35,851 bases of DNA from Elusimicrobiota bacterium. Its GTDB lineage: Bacteria; Elusimicrobiota; Elusimicrobia; Elusimicrobiales; UBA9959. The position numbers were made by a program, and so were the translations under genes. A model generated the notes under the pieces. That model saw nothing but the letters and a program-made list of their open reading frames with translations, was not told where the DNA came from and did no database searches. Where the stretch lies: positions 1-35,851 of the forward strand of contig WOVA01000024.1 of NCBI GenBank assembly GCA_009773155.1, in the 5' to 3' direction. Numbering within the stretch: the stretch's first letter is position 1; each line of letters begins with the position of its first letter. Shown here piece by piece: positions 2,078 to 8,573 of the stretch.

Positions 2078-2806
2078 TCACTCCGTGATGCCCGCGCCCG
2101 GGGCTGGAACGGGGACACCATGCGGCATGGTGTCCCCCGCCGATGCGGGAGGGGCGGCGGCCTGCGCGGCGGTCATGGCCGGCGGGTCGGGATAGGGATT
2201 GTTCTTTACGAAGAACACTACGCGGCGGTTCTTCTGCCGGTTCTCGGGGCTGTCATTGGGCACGGACGGATGATACTCGCCGTAGCCCACCGCGGAAAGC
2301 CTCTTGGGGGCGAAATTTATGGCCAGCAGGTGCTTGACCACGCTGGTCGCGCGGGCCGTGGAGAGGTCCCAGTTGGACTCGAACTGCTTTGTCCTTATCG
2401 GGACGGCGTCGGTGTGGCCCTCCACCACTATATCATGCTTGGTGGAAAGGTTCTTCAGGATCGGGGAGATCTTCTCCAGCTTGGACTTCATGTCTTCGGT
2501 GATCTCGGAGCGCCCGCTCTCGAAGAACGCGACCGAGCCCTGCTCTTCCAGCGTTATGCGCAGGCCTTCCTTATCCATCTGGACCTGCCCCTGCAGCTCG
2601 CCCTTCTGCATCATCTCCTCGATCTGGCTCTTGGCCTCCTGCATGTTCTTGTTCAGGGCGGCGGAAAGGGCGTAGAGGATGACGAAGAAACAGACCAATT
2701 CGGTCATCAGATCGGCGTAGGCGGTCATCCACGGCGGGGCGGGGTGGCCGACCGCCGCCACCCTCGGATCATCCTCCCGTATCCAGCCCTTGACTTTTAT
2801 AGCCAT
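2078..2806 (-). CDS. motB: MotB-like stator subunit with OmpA peptidoglycan-binding domain
   Basis: MotB forms an ion channel with MotA and anchors it to peptidoglycan. This 242-residue protein has a short cytoplasmic N-terminus and one membrane helix (about 27-50). The proton-carrying Asp is at position 32 within WMTAYADLMT, the same number as in E. coli MotB. The OmpA/MotB domain spans about 83-200 and contains GHTD (130-133), NWDLSTARA (145-153) and the closing NRRVVFF. An extra acidic residue, Glu36, lies one turn after Asp32, where most relatives have a hydrophobic residue. The Pro/Ala-rich C-terminus contains the nine residues GDTMPHGVP (224-232), encoded by a 27-bp palindrome. The start is 4 bp after the motA stop, so the two are translationally linked. 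The family call is firm; whether it drives a flagellum is not. Confidence 0.93.
   Translation of the reverse strand: MAIKVKGWIREDDPRVAAVGHPAPPWMTAYADLMTELVCFFVILYALSAALNKNMQEAKSQIEEMMQKGELQGQVQMDKEGLRITLEEQGSVAFFESGRSEITEDMKSKLEKISPILKNLSTKHDIVVEGHTDAVPIRTKQFESNWDLSTARATSVVKHLLAINFAPKRLSAVGYGEYHPSVPNDSPENRQKNRRVVFFVKNNPYPDPPAMTAAQAAAPPASAGDTMPHGVPVPAPGAGITE
2111..2137. repeat. In-frame 27-bp palindrome, copy 1 (in motB)
   Basis: A perfect palindrome with 13-bp arms (GGGGACACCATGC and its complement) around one central base. It lies in the 3' part of motB and is read on the minus strand as GDTMPHGVP, followed by VP. Its 27 bp equal nine codons, so it leaves the frame intact. It is in the Ala/Pro-rich tail after the OmpA fold. 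Near-identical copies are at 6197-6223 and 6774-6800. Confidence 0.93.
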
Positions 2807-2810
2807 AAGC

Positions 2811-3596
2811 TCAGGCGGCGGCTTCCGCCGTCACCGTCTTGCGCTTTTGGGGCTCGAGGTAGGCCTTCAGATTGGCCTCTACCACGCTGGGCGTGGCGCC
2901 GCTCTGCAGCAGCAGCACGCCGCGGATGATTATCTCTTTGACGAAAAGTTCTTCTTCCGATCTGTGCTTGAGCTTGCCGGCCATCGGCAGGAAGAGCCAG
3001 TAGCCGGAACCCAGGCCGTAGAAGGCGGCAGCCAGCGCCAAGGCCATGCGCCGCGGCACGGCCGCCACGTCCTCGATGGTGGAAAGCATCATGATCATAC
3101 CCAGCACCGTGCCGATAACGCCGAAGGCCGGGGCATAAGTGCCCAGGGCATTGAAAATTTCGCGGCCGGCCTTATGCCGCTCGCGTATAAAATCCAGCTC
3201 GGTCTCGAGCATATTGCGGATGAACTCATGGTCGGAGCCGTCTATGACCAGCTGCACGCCGCGCTTGAGGAAATCGTTGTCGATGGTCTGCACGTCGGAC
3301 TGCAGGGCCAGGAAGCCCTCCTTCTTGGCCTTCTGCGCGAGCGAGACGAAGGTGGAGACGATCTTGGAGGTGTCCTCGCCCTTGGTGGTCAGCACCTTTT
3401 TCAGGACCTTGCCGGAGCTGATGACCGACGAGAGAGGAAAATTGATCAGCAGGGCGCAAAAAGTGCCGCCCATGACTATCAGGGCGGCCTCCATGTTCAG
3501 GAAAGGCAGGAACCCCTCTATGCCGCCGCCATGGTAGATGGCCCCGAATACGAAGCCCAGGAAAATAATTATGCCGGTGAAAGTCGCTATGTCCAT
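2811..3596 (-). CDS. motA: MotA-like stator subunit (ExbB/TolQ/MotA superfamily)
   Basis: MotA surrounds MotB in the inner membrane and converts ion flow into movement. This 261-residue protein has four membrane helices (about 1-21, 33-55, 153-172, 183-205) and a large cytoplasmic loop. The conserved prolines of helices 3 and 4 are present: Pro156 in TYAPAFGVIGT and Pro204 in LFLPMAGKLK. QLVIDGSDHEFIRNMLETE is typical of MotA from spirochaetes and Gram-positives. In the cytoplasmic loop, AKKEGFLALQ has Lys where E. coli has Arg90 and Gln (residue 99) where most MotAs have Glu (E98 in E. coli), so one torque charge is missing. GGAG lies nine bases before the ATG. It sits between flbD and motB in the order familiar from flagellar operons, but no fliL, fliM or hook genes follow. 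Confidence 0.94.
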   Translation of the reverse strand: MDIATFTGIIIFLGFVFGAIYHGGGIEGFLPFLNMEAALIVMGGTFCALLINFPLSSVISSGKVLKKVLTTKGEDTSKIVSTFVSLAQKAKKEGFLALQSDVQTIDNDFLKRGVQLVIDGSDHEFIRNMLETELDFIRERHKAGREIFNALGTYAPAFGVIGTVLGMIMMLSTIEDVAAVPRRMALALAAAFYGLGSGYWLFLPMAGKLKHRSEEELFVKEIIIRGVLLLQSGATPSVVEANLKAYLEPQKRKTVTAEAAA

Positions 3597-3693
3597 ATTA
3601 AAAAGCTCCGTTTAACTTCATCGCCCGGCCGGATCAGGGCGGCATTGTCCGCAGTCGGTGCCACGAGCTCTGCGAGTGGCCGGAGACCCGGGC

Positions 3694-3918
3694 CTATTTT
3701 TTCTCGTAATACTCGATCGGATTGACCGCTTTTTTCTCCGCGTACACCTGCTTCCTGTATTCAATGACCTTCGCCACCACCTCGTCCACCGAATCTTTCA
3801 CCAGGTAGCGGTTCCCCGTCACCAGGTTTATCACGGTGTCGGGGGCCGCCTCCAGGCTCTCTATGAGCTCGGCGTTGACCACGACCTCGGTGCCGTTAAG
3901 CTTGCAAAGGTGTATCAT
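3694..3918 (-). CDS. flbD: FlbD family protein
   Basis: A 74-residue cytoplasmic protein covering the whole FlbD family. It starts MIHLCKLNG, then NAELIESLEAAPDTVI, the glycine turn NLVTGNRYLV, and EVVAKVIEYR. FlbD is a small protein of unknown biochemical role, nearly always encoded just before motA in flagellar clusters of spirochaetes, clostridia and others. Its presence here supports descent of the cluster from a flagellar operon. Spacing to motA is 97 bp. No clear ribosome binding site precedes the ATG; an extended -10 box lies just upstream, so the message could be nearly leaderless. Confidence 0.93.
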   Translation of the reverse strand: MIHLCKLNGTEVVVNAELIESLEAAPDTVINLVTGNRYLVKDSVDEVVAKVIEYRKQVYAEKKAVNPIEYYEKK

Positions 3919-3925
3919 TCAGAAA

Positions 3926-3937
3926 GAATTATACCAA
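3926..3937 (-). promoter_or_regulatory. Possible extended -10 promoter for flbD-motA-motB
   Basis: On the minus strand TTTGGTATAATTC carries a TATAAT box (3929-3934) with an upstream TGG. No good -35 hexamer is seen at 16-18 bp. Transcription would begin only a few bases before the flbD ATG, giving an almost leaderless message, which fits the missing ribosome binding site. It lies between palindrome P3 and flbD. Confidence 0.3.
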
Positions 3938-3950
3938 AGGTGGGGTCAGC

Positions 3951-4035
3951 AATTCGGGGACAGTATACTTAATTCCGCTCGTAGCGACTTTACTTCCGTC
4001 CTGACTTGGGGAATTAAGTATACTGTCCCCGAATT
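3951..4035. repeat. Palindromic element P3, 26-bp arms
   Basis: A perfect 26-bp inverted repeat (arms 3951-3976 and 4010-4035) with a 33-nt loop. The outer ends read AATTCGGGGACAGTATAC. It fills the gap between the coiled-coil gene and flbD, and its right arm includes two bases of the coiled-coil gene's TAA stop. As RNA it would form a long hairpin between the two cistrons. It belongs to the same GGGGAC-ended family. Confidence 0.9.
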
Positions 4036-6277
4036 ATTTCCCCTTTATGGCCCACTTAAGGCGGTCGGCGAGGCTACCCTCGAGGGTGCGGTACTTCTCT
4101 ACCTCGGCGGCCAGCGCGGCCAGTTCCTGCTCCCGGGCGCCCAGCTGGGCGCCCCAGGCGGCGTCGGTCTCGGCGCGCGAGGCCCGCTCGGCGTCCAGCT
4201 GCGAGGCCAGGTCCTGCACCTGGAACTCCAGCTGCTGCGACTTCTGCTTGAGGAACACGACCTCTGATTCGAAGCGGGCGCGGTTCTCGTTCTCTATGCG
4301 GAAAGAATCTTTCAGGGCCGCCAGCTCCTTCTCGCGCTCGGCGGCATTGCCGGAAAGCTCGGCGGCCTGGCGGGCCAGGTCGGTTGAGCGGACCTTGAGC
4401 GCCTCCAGCTCCGCCTCCATGCGGCGGCGGGCGGCCTCGGCGGCTTCGGCGGCCGCGGCCTGGGCCTTCATGGCGCCTTCTATGCGGACTTTCTCCTCGC
4501 CCAGCATGGCGAGCCGCTCTTTCATGGCGGCCTCGAAGCGGTCCTTCTCCCCGCGGGAGGCGGCGGAGCTGGCCTGCAGGTCGGCCTCGCGGGCGCGCAG
4601 CTCGGCGGCGAGGCGCTGGGTCTCGGCGCGCAGCGTGGCGCCCTCCTCATCGGCGCGGTTCCGCGCGTCCTTCAATTTACGCAGTTCCTCGGAGTAATCG
4701 GCCTCCATGCGGGCCTTGAGATTGGCCTTCATGTCGGCCATCGCGGCCTCGTAAGTCCCGCGCAGTTCCATCGCGCGGCTCTCGGCCTGGATCTGCTTCT
4801 CGGAGGAGACGCGCTCCAGGTCCTGCTGATGGGCCTTCTGCAGATTGGCGGTTTCGGCGTCGTAGCGGCGCTGCAGCCGCGAGACTTCCTCCTGGGCGGC
4901 CTTGCGGGCCAGCGCCAGCTTCTCCTCGTAATCGCGGGTTATCTCCCCCGCCAGGTCGCGGCGGATCTTCTCCAGCTCCGCGGCGTGCGCGGCCGCCAGC
5001 GCCTCTATCTCTCCGGCGTGCCTGGCCGCGAAATTCTCGAGCTCCGACTTCAGGCGCTTGGTCTCCTCCATGCCGGCGGCCATGCCCTGGGCCAGCTGGA
5101 CCTTCTCCACGCGCATCTGGGAGCGCTCCTTCTCCAGCGCGGCGTTGACCGCCTGCACGCGGGAGATGAAACCCTTGAGCTTGACCAGCTCGGAGATGGC
5201 GCGCACCTTCTCGCCCGAGGCCTCCGCGAGTTTCGCCTCCAGGGAGTGAAGTTCGGCCTCGTGTTTATCACGGGCCTTGGCCAGCTCCTGCTCCTTCTCT
5301 GAATTCTTGCGGTCGGCTATGGAACCTATATCCCGCTGGAGCCTGTCGATATCGGCGTTGAGCTTGTCCTCGCGGGACTTGTATTCGGAGGAGGACTTCT
5401 CCTCCTTCATTTTCAGGATGGCGACCTCGGCCCGCAACTGCGCGAGCTCGCGCTCCTTATCAGGAATGCTTTTAATATAGCCTTCCACGGCGGCGCGCTC
5501 GCGCTCCAGGCGGGAGATCTCCTCGCGCAGCTTGCCGCTCTCGCGCTCGAGCAGCGTGCGCTCCATGCCCGACTCGCGCAGCTCCTGCTGCACCTCGGTC
5601 AGCCTCTCGGAGGAATTCTTCAGCGAGCGGACCTCGTCCTCTTTCTGGCCGATGGTCCGCTGCCACTGGGCCTTCTCCTCCAGCCAGCGGCGCTCCATCT
5701 CCTGGAGCCGGAAAATAAAATGTCCCTCGACGTCCTTGGATTGGGTCTCGCGCTCCAGCATCTGACCCTTGAGCGTCTGCATCCAGGTCTCGCGCTCCTG
5801 CACGATCCGGTTCTCCAGTTCCTTGACCTTGGATTTGAGAGTGAGCCGCTCCTCCTCGACCTCCTGGTCGCGGCGCTCGCGGCGGAGCTTATCCTGTATA
5901 TCTTTGAGGGAGGACTCCACCTTGGAAGAGAGGACTTCGTCCTGCTGGCTCTTGAGCGTGGCCAGCAGCGCCTTCTCCTTCTCCTGGGCGACGACCTTCT
6001 CCATTTCGAGCATCCGCTTCTCGAGCTTCTCCTTCTCCTCGCGGGCGGCCCGGAGCTCCTCCTCGGAGCGGTCGGGCCTGGCGGCGGGGGCCTGCTGGAA
6101 AGAGGGCATGGCCGGGCGGGGCAGGGCGGGACCGCCGCCGGGCATGGGAGGAAGACCGGGACCCCCGCCCCCGCGCGCAGGCGGGGCCGGCGGAATGGGG
6201 ACACCATGCCGCATGATGTCCCCGGGAAACGGGGGAGGAAGCGGCTTCTTGGGATCTTTCTCGTTCTTGTCGTCCAT
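4034..6277 (-). CDS. Large coiled-coil protein with proline-rich N-terminus
   Basis: A 747-residue cytoplasmic protein with no signal peptide. Residues 1-70 are Pro/Gly-rich (PLPPPFPG, PPMPGGG) and contain the palindrome-encoded GDIMRHGVP (19-27). From about 70 to 735 it is almost continuous heptad-rich coiled coil, rich in Glu, Lys, Arg, Ala and Leu, with Trp-bearing segments such as RETWMQTLKGQM. No enzymatic domain, response-regulator domain or membrane helix is visible. It could be a cytoskeleton-like scaffold, comparable in shape to AglZ or other motility and polarity coiled coils, but I see no sequence match to those. It lies between the FliF-FliG fusion and flbD-motA-motB, suggesting a structural part of the same machine. 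The ATG has no good ribosome binding site nearby; GAGGAG is over 20 bases away. Confidence 0.8.
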   Translation of the reverse strand: MDDKNEKDPKKPLPPPFPGDIMRHGVPIPPAPPARGGGGPGLPPMPGGGPALPRPAMPSFQQAPAARPDRSEEELRAAREEKEKLEKRMLEMEKVVAQEKEKALLATLKSQQDEVLSSKVESSLKDIQDKLRRERRDQEVEEERLTLKSKVKELENRIVQERETWMQTLKGQMLERETQSKDVEGHFIFRLQEMERRWLEEKAQWQRTIGQKEDEVRSLKNSSERLTEVQQELRESGMERTLLERESGKLREEISRLERERAAVEGYIKSIPDKERELAQLRAEVAILKMKEEKSSSEYKSREDKLNADIDRLQRDIGSIADRKNSEKEQELAKARDKHEAELHSLEAKLAEASGEKVRAISELVKLKGFISRVQAVNAALEKERSQMRVEKVQLAQGMAAGMEETKRLKSELENFAARHAGEIEALAAAHAAELEKIRRDLAGEITRDYEEKLALARKAAQEEVSRLQRRYDAETANLQKAHQQDLERVSSEKQIQAESRAMELRGTYEAAMADMKANLKARMEADYSEELRKLKDARNRADEEGATLRAETQRLAAELRAREADLQASSAASRGEKDRFEAAMKERLAMLGEEKVRIEGAMKAQAAAAEAAEAARRRMEAELEALKVRSTDLARQAAELSGNAAEREKELAALKDSFRIENENRARFESEVVFLKQKSQQLEFQVQDLASQLDAERASRAETDAAWGAQLGAREQELAALAAEVEKYRTLEGSLADRLKWAIKGK
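6197..6223. repeat. In-frame 27-bp palindrome, copy 2 (in the coiled-coil gene)
   Basis: Same element as at 2111 and 6774, with one mismatch between the arms (GCATGATGTCCCC on the right). It is read on the minus strand as GDIMRHGVP, followed by IP, in the proline-rich N-terminus of the coiled-coil protein. The reading frame relative to the element is the same as in the other two genes. Confidence 0.9.
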
Positions 6278-6360
6278 AGGAATTCGGCTAAAATCGTTAT
6301 TGCTCCTCTATATTCTACTTTCAGCCAGTTTCCTTTTAGTTAAATAATTGTTAATTCCCT

Positions 6361-6366
6361 ATTATA
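6361..6366 (-). promoter_or_regulatory. Possible -10 box upstream of the coiled-coil gene
   Basis: A consensus TATAAT on the minus strand, about 85 bp before the coiled-coil start and just after a row of hairpins. The sequence 16-18 bp upstream is GC-rich and does not resemble TTGACA. Transcription from here would give a leader of roughly 75 nt. Confidence 0.3.
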
Positions 6367-6387
6367 GGGGCCTGCTGCCTGCCGCCA

Positions 6388-6491
6388 CGGATAAGCAGCA
6401 TAGCTGCTTTCCGCGGCCCCACCTCGGCGTCCGTTTGCTGAGGCGGACGCCTCCGGTCTTGCGGACCGGACGTAAAGCGCACCGCGCTTTA
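6388..6491 (-). other. Row of four RNA hairpins between the FliF-FliG and coiled-coil genes
   Basis: Four inverted repeats lie side by side: 6473-6491 (TAAAGCGC, ACC loop, overlapping the fliFG stop codon), 6452-6470 (TCCGGTC, 5-nt loop), 6426-6451 (GGCGTCCG, 10-nt loop) and 6394-6408 (AGCAGC, 3-nt loop, extended by CGGA/TCCG further out). None is followed by a T-run in the minus-strand direction, so a simple intrinsic terminator is unlikely. They may act in mRNA processing or stability, or be decayed repeat elements. Confidence 0.6.
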
Positions 6492-8447
6492 CTCTCTGCC
6501 GGTCCTCACCTGCTGCTTGAAAGAGGCCAGCCATTCCGACGCGGCCGGGTCGCCGCTCAGCGAGGCGTATTTCTCATAGGCGGCCACGGACTCGTCAACG
6601 CGGCCCAGCGCGTAGTAAGCCGCGCCCAGGTACTGCTGCACCTCGGCCGAGCCGGGCGCCTGCGAGGCGGCGTATTCCAGGTACTGCAGCGATTCCTCGG
6701 CCCTGCCCTGGTTGTAGAGGTCGGCGCCGGCCGTTATGTACTGCTGGGCCTCCGCCGATACCGGCGCGGCAATGGGGACACCATGCGGCATGGTGTCCCC
6801 GGCGAGGCTGTCGAATTTCTTCTTGCGGTCGGAAGCGGAGGTCATGTCCACGCTGTCTACGATGTAGACCTCCTGCGACTGCTGACCGCGGGGAGTGATC
6901 TTGCCGCCGGCCTCCAGGGTCTTTATCGCGTCGAGGATCTTGCCCTGCGCCTCGTCTATCTGGAAAACGGATATTTCGCCGGAATAATCTATGATCTCCT
7001 TGATGGCGCTGGCGGCGCCCTGCGACATATTGGCGTAGAACTTCTCCACTATCGGCGGGTCCGCCTTGGCTATGGCGCGCGCCACGACCTCGTTGCTGAC
7101 GCTGCGTATGATCAGCTGCATATCCCTGTCCGGGAAAGTTACCACGTCCTCGAACATCAGCACGACTTTCTTTATCTTCTCGTAGATGTCGGGCTTCTGC
7201 GTCTTCAGGTAGTCCAGAATATTCTTCTTTATCGCCGGATCGGCCTCGTCGAGCATCTTTATGAGGCGCTCTATTCCTCCCATCACGAAATCCACGCTGT
7301 TCTTTATGTCCCGGTCTATAGCCTCTATCTGCTCCCTGGTGGCCTGGCGCACGGTCAGGGCCTCCAGCGCCACCTTGGACTGCACCTCTATCGGCAGCAT
7401 CGACAGCGCCTGCCGGGAGAGCTCCGGCCTGATGTAACTCAGCACCACGGCTATCACCCAGGGCTCTTCCTTGCGCATCAGGAAAAGATAGATGAGGCGC
7501 TTGAGGTTCTCCTCGTTTATATAGGTGAACGGCTCGAATTTCTTCATACTTTCGTCCTCTTCCTCTTCCCCCTTCTGCTCGAAGGTCATGTCTATGGCCT
7601 GGTGGCCCTCGGTCTCCTGTTTCCCCGCCTCGTCCCCGGAGCCGCCGCCCCCCTCCTCCATCTTCTGGTCTATGTTGACCTCGGCGCCGGGCTTGGCCAT
7701 CAGGGCCCTGATGTACTTGCGGAAGAAGCCCCAGAGCGGGCCGAAAAGGAACAGCAGCAGCAGCAGGAACAGCAGCGCGTAGAGCAGCGGCAGGTACACC
7801 GACGGCCGCTTGAGGTCGTCGAGGTAATTATAGCTTTTGAACCGGGTGGGCTTGAAAACCACGGTCGGGGCGTCCTGTTTTTTTATCTTGTAGGGCAGCA
7901 GGAAATCGTCCACCCTCTCGCGGGCCAGCGCCACCGGCTCCGGGGCCAGCGTCTCGTCGTGTATGACCGTGACCTGGAAGCGGTTTATCTCGGTCTCGGC
8001 GCCGTAGCGGGTCTCCTGTACGCCCCTCGACTGCTGGGCCTGCTGGCCGGTGGCCGCGGCGGGCGGCCCCGACTTTCCGCCCATTATCGACTTGGGCTTG
8101 GGTATGCCCGGCAGCAGAAACTCCGACTCCTGCCGGCCCGCGTCCTGCCCGCCCTTCTCCTTGTACTTCTGCATCACGCCGACGCCCTCGCGGCTCTGGT
8201 CGGCCTTGCGCGCGATGATCTCCAGCTCCACGTCGGCGAAGACGAAGGACTTCCCCTCCCCGAATATCGGGTCGAGTATCTCCTTCTTGATCTTGGTCTC
8301 GGTCTCGCGGCGCAGCGCGTCCTGCTTCTCGATGACCGAGAGGCCGGTGCCGGCGTCGGCCGCGTCCGGCTTTTCCTGTCCGCGGACCGGCAGGGCGAAG
8401 CAGGACAGCAGGGCCGCCGAAAGGGAGATGGCGCGATAGATGCTCAT
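6489..8447 (-). CDS. FliF(C-terminal)-FliG fusion with signal peptide and TPR tail
   Basis: A 652-residue fusion. Residues 1-23 form a Sec signal peptide. Residues about 35-205 resemble the C-terminal periplasmic domain of FliF, the MS-ring protein (LRRETETKIKKEILDPIFGEGK, then INRFQVTVIHDE and VFKPTRF). A membrane helix spans about 216-242. After an acidic linker comes FliG: the middle domain (about 305-365, FLMRKEEPWVIAVVLSYIRPE) and C domain (about 430-516, MFEDVVTFPDRDMQ, NMSQGAASAIKEI, IDEAQGKILDAIKTLE). A palindrome-encoded GDTMPHGVP (550-558) separates this from a TPR region (about 563-632). The predicted topology places the FliF part in the periplasm and the FliG and TPR parts in the cytoplasm, where MotA acts. 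FliF ring-building motifs 1 and 2, the usual first membrane helix and FliG-N are absent. Torque charges in FliG-C are largely replaced. It is probably the rotating or receiving partner of the nearby MotAB. Confidence 0.88.
   Translation of the reverse strand: MSIYRAISLSAALLSCFALPVRGQEKPDAADAGTGLSVIEKQDALRRETETKIKKEILDPIFGEGKSFVFADVELEIIARKADQSREGVGVMQKYKEKGGQDAGRQESEFLLPGIPKPKSIMGGKSGPPAAATGQQAQQSRGVQETRYGAETEINRFQVTVIHDETLAPEPVALARERVDDFLLPYKIKKQDAPTVVFKPTRFKSYNYLDDLKRPSVYLPLLYALLFLLLLLFLFGPLWGFFRKYIRALMAKPGAEVNIDQKMEEGGGGSGDEAGKQETEGHQAIDMTFEQKGEEEEDESMKKFEPFTYINEENLKRLIYLFLMRKEEPWVIAVVLSYIRPELSRQALSMLPIEVQSKVALEALTVRQATREQIEAIDRDIKNSVDFVMGGIERLIKMLDEADPAIKKNILDYLKTQKPDIYEKIKKVVLMFEDVVTFPDRDMQLIIRSVSNEVVARAIAKADPPIVEKFYANMSQGAASAIKEIIDYSGEISVFQIDEAQGKILDAIKTLEAGGKITPRGQQSQEVYIVDSVDMTSASDRKKKFDSLAGDTMPHGVPIAAPVSAEAQQYITAGADLYNQGRAEESLQYLEYAASQAPGSAEVQQYLGAAYYALGRVDESVAAYEKYASLSGDPAASEWLASFKQQVRTGRE
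6774..6800. repeat. In-frame 27-bp palindrome, copy 3 (in the FliF-FliG fusion)
   Basis: A perfect palindrome identical to the motB copy, with 13-bp arms and one central base. It is translated on the minus strand as GDTMPHGVP, followed by IA. It sits exactly in the linker between the FliG-C domain and the TPRs. Confidence 0.93.
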
Positions 8448-8520: not shown

Positions 8521-8570
8521 AGGGGGTCAGGTCTTTACTTTTGACGTCAAAAGTAAAGACCTGACCCCCT
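8521..8570. repeat. Perfect 50-bp palindrome P4
   Basis: Two 25-bp arms (starting AGGGGGTCAGGTCTTTACTT) meet with no loop, centred on GACGTC. It lies 3 bp after the PorV-TPR stop codon and 73 bp before the FliF-FliG start. It differs from the GGGGAC copies by beginning GGGGGTCAGG. In RNA it would form an extremely stable hairpin and may separate expression of the two genes. A perfect uninterrupted palindrome of this length is prone to deletion in cells, so it is probably recent or kept by selection. Confidence 0.95.
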
Positions 8571-8573
8571 CCC

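Follow-up and report, generated by a model that had tools for sequence, protein, structure and literature searches.

The analysed stretch of DNA, hereafter called the window, comprises 35,851 nucleotides of the Elusimicrobiota contig WOVA01000024.1 (assembly GCA_009773155.1) and carries three genes in which the same 27-bp palindrome is read as part of the protein (Table 1). The two perfect copies have the sequence GGGGACACCATGCGGCATGGTGTCCCC and the copy with one mismatch reads GGGGACACCATGCCGCATGATGTCCCC, the palindrome itself being GGGGACACCATGCNGCATGGTGTCCCC. No match was obtained in 100 trials with shuffled sequence. All three copies fold into hairpins, of which the one at 6197 is less stable. 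The initial annotation had described a common reading frame for the three copies and their placement in linkers or tails, and both statements were confirmed. In the MotB-like protein the peptide forms residues 224-232 of 242 and thus lies past the OmpA domain (residues 94-194), and in the FliG-like protein it follows the FliG_C domain (413-518) and precedes the TPRs, which begin at about residue 574. Compared with the two congeners G001 and G002, the FliG-like protein of the window has a linker shorter by one residue. The copy in the MotB-like gene has a 42-bp extended form, as have half of the copies in the genome.

Table 1. Palindrome copies in the window and the genes that contain them.
Feature	Position	Strand	Description
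27-bp palindrome, perfect copy	2111..2137	-	Read GDTMPHGVP, in MotB-like gene
42-bp extended form of the MotB-like copy	2105..2146	-	GCATCGGCG + core + GTTCCA, read ASAGDTMPHGVPVP
27-bp palindrome, one mismatch, core-only	6197..6223	-	Read GDIMRHGVP, close to the N-terminus, in coiled-coil gene
27-bp palindrome, perfect copy, core-only	6774..6800	-	Read GDTMPHGVP between FliG_C and TPR
Host gene, MotB-like (MotB_plug + OmpA)	2078..2806	-	Pfam
Host gene, 747-aa coiled-coil protein	4034..6277	-	Without Pfam family
Host gene, FliG-like protein with C-terminal TPRs	6489..8447	-	Pfam

Two other hairpins adjoin these genes. A further hairpin with a GGGGACA foot (GGGGACAGTATACTTAATTC...) is located at 3956-4030, immediately 3' of the coiled-coil gene, and a nearly perfect one about 50 bp long (GGGGGTCAGGTCTTTACTTTTGACGTC...) at 8521-8571 separates the FliG-like gene from the next gene. 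Comparison of the latter with Rfam returned miRNA matches only, all under gathering scores.

The palindrome is widely distributed in the genome to which the window belongs (G000; 93 contigs, 2.76 Mb), where 138 copies were detected at up to three mismatches, while a reversed control sequence gave no match. The congeners G001-G003 contain 11-15 copies each. Of 341 genomes of the phylum, 12 contain the arm pattern, in which two constant arms of nine bases enclose nine unconstrained bases; it occurs 55 times in the window's genome and at most six times elsewhere. Outside the phylum the exact 27-mer was detected in a MAG of Candidatus Poribacteria and, as a single copy, in one of Acidobacteriota. 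Searches of viral contigs and of phage and plasmid collections yielded nothing or partial matches at chance level, and a search of Rfam gave no sensible match. Of the 2.76 Mb, 1.43 Mb were read, which contain 108 copies at up to five mismatches; as this sample is skewed toward contigs known to carry copies, no copy density was estimated.

Each of the 108 copies was given to the ORF that scored highest under a home-made codon model, which had been trained on the window's genome and took the place of a standard gene finder. By this assignment 86 copies are inside called ORFs and 22 have no confident ORF. Frame 0, which encodes GDTM[RP]HGVP, accounts for 66 of the 86 copies, where one third would be expected (p=2e-16); the 20 copies in other frames (frame 1, 9; frame 2, 11) probably include some assigned to shadow ORFs, as we read the case of C66:37495, where the frame-0 reading terminates as ASAGDTMRHGVPVP-stop. 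The in-frame copies are spread over 56 ORFs. With a composite query of 26 sites, orthologous proteins were found in G002 and G001. At 24 sites, those of the window among them, a homologue could be aligned on both flanks of the element in frame 0, which supports this frame independently of the codon model.

Two forms of the element can be distinguished, with 57 extended and 51 core-only copies among the 108. The extended form carries GCATCAGCG 5' and GTACCG 3' of the core, comprises 42 bp in total and is read ASAGDTM[RP]HGVPVP. Conservation falls abruptly beyond position -9 and fades more slowly on the opposite side. Within ORFs, 37 of 46 extended copies are both sense-oriented and in frame 0. 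Since three sense and two antisense frames of the 42-bp consensus are open, that is five of six, stop codons alone fail to explain the bias in orientation and frame. The alternative readings of the extended form are peptides of the HHAAWC or TPCGMV type. In one copy, at C18:10251-10328 (L040), about 51 bp lie between the two arms, and this copy is still in frame within a 2074-aa protein; tandem dimers of 30 bp at C18:18065-18121 and C34:36841-36897 are read SAGDTMPHGVSAGDTMPHGV, and their junction GGTGTATCAGCG is found again at several loci.

The host proteins are unrelated to one another, and the sites are Ala/Pro-rich linkers and termini. They include proteins which, from their peptide sequences and without database hits, we take to be KsgA-, RimO-, Hcp-, TsaD-, UvrA-, RarA- and NadB-like. 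In the flanks of in-frame copies Pro is enriched 2.2-fold, Ala 1.4-fold and Ser 1.3-fold, and most hydrophobic residues are depleted. Moreover, 25 of the 66 in-frame copies are located within 40 residues of a protein end, compared with 13.1 expected.

Comparison with homologous genes of the congeners revealed empty sites. In G002 the element is absent at 24 of 26 comparable sites, shared at one (C20:43379) and ambiguous at one, three sites that could not be compared being left out of this count. A reciprocal case, with the element in G003 and absent from the window's genome, was also found. G001 and G002 agree on the length of the site at 15 of 23 sites, and relative to these the net change ranges from -1 to 13 codons. 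At all 15 sites the gain is smaller than the element's own 9 (core) or 14 (extended) codons, from which it follows that at most sites native linker residues were apparently lost at the entry of the element and that the change is not a clean insertion. In a KsgA-like protein, for example, AAFGGEKEKAAAAL has been changed to AAGDTMLHGVPRIAAAAAL. The claim that 27 bp keeps the frame was therefore incomplete, as the sites differ in net length by anything from a slightly negative value to about 14 codons. The loss of residues may reflect a single replacement event or an insertion with subsequent shrinkage of the linker, between which congeners at this distance do not discriminate.

The initial annotation had also proposed that a mobile element was domesticated as a peptide tag. 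The first part, a dispersed palindromic element, holds, but the second does not agree with the pattern of substitutions. According to the tag explanation GDTM[RP]HGVP(VP) would serve processing, localisation or interaction and would be kept by selection at the protein level; the strong bias to one frame and one orientation and the location of several copies directly past signal-peptide-like N-termini are in its favour. Within the core, however, 38 synonymous and 56 non-synonymous changes were counted, and 20 of the 38 fall at position 27, where they largely represent a subfamily difference. When this position is set aside, 18 of 74 observed changes are synonymous, compared with 18 of 75 possible ones, so that the core changes carry no mark of peptide-level selection, which speaks against domestication as a tag. 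The position between M and H varies freely among R, P, L and Q, and the apparently orthologous copies shared with the congeners have drifted to ARDTMPHDVPV in G002 and GGAILNGVP in G001. An excess of third-position changes within the 42-bp flanks could be cited for the tag, being found in 66 of 100 cases for in-frame copies, but it reaches 30 of 47 for the other copies. As it is common to both groups and involves few polymorphic sites, we read it as inherited subfamily variation, which perhaps traces back to master copies sitting in genes; the group of other copies may itself include some unrecognised coding copies. Double changes which preserve the hairpin are slightly overrepresented in the core (6 versus 2.2 expected), a weak signal. 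Considering further that housekeeping as well as exported proteins with no relation to one another serve as hosts, that most comparable sites of the congener lack the element and that additional copies are intergenic or read in other frames, a domesticated tag appears very improbable.

A different arrangement was found in the Poribacteria MAG (JACRIR01), where 2 of 114 distinct copies examined are inside ORFs, as judged by a two-sided test stricter than the one applied to the window's genome. These copies (L064-L143) consist of the 27-mer within palindromes of about 45 bp with dozens of different complementary arms, nearly all of them intergenic. Most are central in the longer palindrome, the mean arm extension being 7.5 bp versus 2.2 for shuffled partners. 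A corresponding central position was rejected for the in-gene core-only copies of the window's genome (mean extension 0.37, null 0.53). The intergenic location of the Poribacteria copies within longer hairpins would be expected of a recognition site for a chromosomal DNA-binding protein or of an RNA hairpin regulator placed by selection. We give this explanation little credence, as most copies of the window's genome lie inside ORFs with a strong frame bias, and the congeners have few copies at sites that are not shared. The occurrence of one and the same 27-mer within genes in one phylum and between genes in another helps to tell mobility from selection.

Palindromes which encode protein are known from Rickettsia, Wolbachia and Methanocaldococcus jannaschii (PMC2229807, PMC10969869, PMC2996958). 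The element described here belongs with these protein-coding palindromic repeats, as it is dispersed, in frame, located in unrelated genes and absent from the homologues of relatives, but it does not share the features that define the named families with which it was compared. The resemblance to Rickettsia palindromic elements (RPE) pointed out previously was substantiated: copies are dispersed, mostly intragenic, read in one frame in non-structured segments of unrelated proteins and missing at the sites of congeners, and in both cases an interpretation as selfish DNA has been offered. RPEs, however, are described as 105-146 bp long (PMC2229807), whereas our element has a core of 27 bp or an extended form of 42 bp, is GC-rich, occurs in another phylum, is more abundant in frame, with 66 such copies in 1.43 Mb, and apparently entails the loss of native residues. 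No RPE model was among the matches listed for the host proteins of the window (NCBIfam, E<=1; the first 25 for the MotB-like protein). The named RPE1-10 are thus set apart by length and NCBIfam, the shorter RPE-4 and RPE-6 being presumably distinct in sequence. Repeats of the GTAG and CGTC superfamilies of REPs are likewise palindromes of 20-40 bp, some of them intragenic with uvrA among the hosts, and intragenic examples have been reported from Opitutus terrae and as RPE-4 and RPE-6 of R. conorii (PMC3733652). They differ in being mostly intergenic, whereas about 80% of the copies studied here lie in called ORFs, and in their terminal tag, which is absent from our element with its extended edges GCATCAGCG...GTACCG. 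The palindromic amphipathic repeat coding elements (PARCEL) are also translated, apparently mobile palindromic DNA (PMC2996958), but they form tandem amphipathic repeats of about 25 amino acids, and here single short linker peptides are encoded. A literature search, covering few subscription journals, found no published description of this palindrome. Genes are avoided by the majority of REP-like repeats. Of the copies sampled here, about four fifths are in ORFs, where one frame accounts for three quarters of them, and the congeners are without them gene by gene. The lineage therefore offers a natural experiment in the conversion of mobile DNA into protein sequence and in the tolerance of different linkers to it.

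We consider the element, with a probability of roughly 0.8, to be a short non-autonomous REP-like palindromic repeat which multiplied in a single Elusimicrobia lineage, both in genes and in intergenic DNA. Survival within genes would be determined by selection, which would purge copies that break the frame or hit folded parts of the protein and also those read in the two frames giving Cys/Trp/His-rich peptides. GDTMPHGVP would accordingly be a tolerated flexible linker and not a signal.

With less confidence, a hairpin-recognising Y1 transposase of the RAYT type is regarded as a plausible mover of the palindrome in trans, because Y1 transposase genes of the genus have other hairpins with the same GGGGACA foot on either side, a trait shared with RAYT-associated REPs and REPINs. 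Three Y1_Tnp genes are encoded in the window's genome. One of them (L018) and its counterparts in the congeners (L180, L183) are bracketed by GGGGACACAATACCTATTTC hairpins, which have the GGGGACA foot in common with the palindrome, and another (L016) is bracketed by a GGGGACAGGCTACTTTT inverted pair. In contrast to RAYT-associated repeats, the palindrome itself flanks none of the Y1_Tnp genes at loci from G000, G001, G002, G003, G011, G016 and the Poribacteria and Acidobacteriota genomes, and in the 1.43 Mb read, about half of the genome, there was no autonomous element sharing its terminal repeats, such as would accompany a MITE. Solitary arms are rare in this sequence, with six unpaired arms, two of which are one split element. 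In the window, an inverted pair (GGGGACACAATACCTATTT...AAATAGGTATTGTGTCCCC) is found at 100-169, and the same family brackets the Y1 transposase gene at L018.

To judge from the native residues lost, copying may have been imprecise, so that a short tract would be replaced instead of a clean insertion being made. Such replacement could also proceed without any transposase: short hairpin DNA might anneal at G/C-rich linkers, or gene conversion or template switching might be at work. Net gains below the length of the element point in this direction, as do the neighbouring copies C27:46962 and C27:51110, which share extra 3' flank, the nested copies of a UvrA-like gene and the fact that no cognate transposase was found. 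Microhomology at the junctions was judged by eye alone, though, linker lengths also change for other reasons, and a burst of copies confined to one lineage is what spread by a transposase typically produces; we therefore rate transposase-free replacement as possible but on the whole unlikely. Within the interpretation as a REP-like repeat, it is a rather doubtful further step that a selfish repeat adapted to translation by settling in a mild linker reading, and that by replacing short tracts it has been rewriting linkers in dozens of proteins. The copies in the UvrA-like gene (C27:48115; L020) are arranged like a ladder, and this gene differs from that of G003 by coupled gains, 13 bp on one side and 14 bp on the other.
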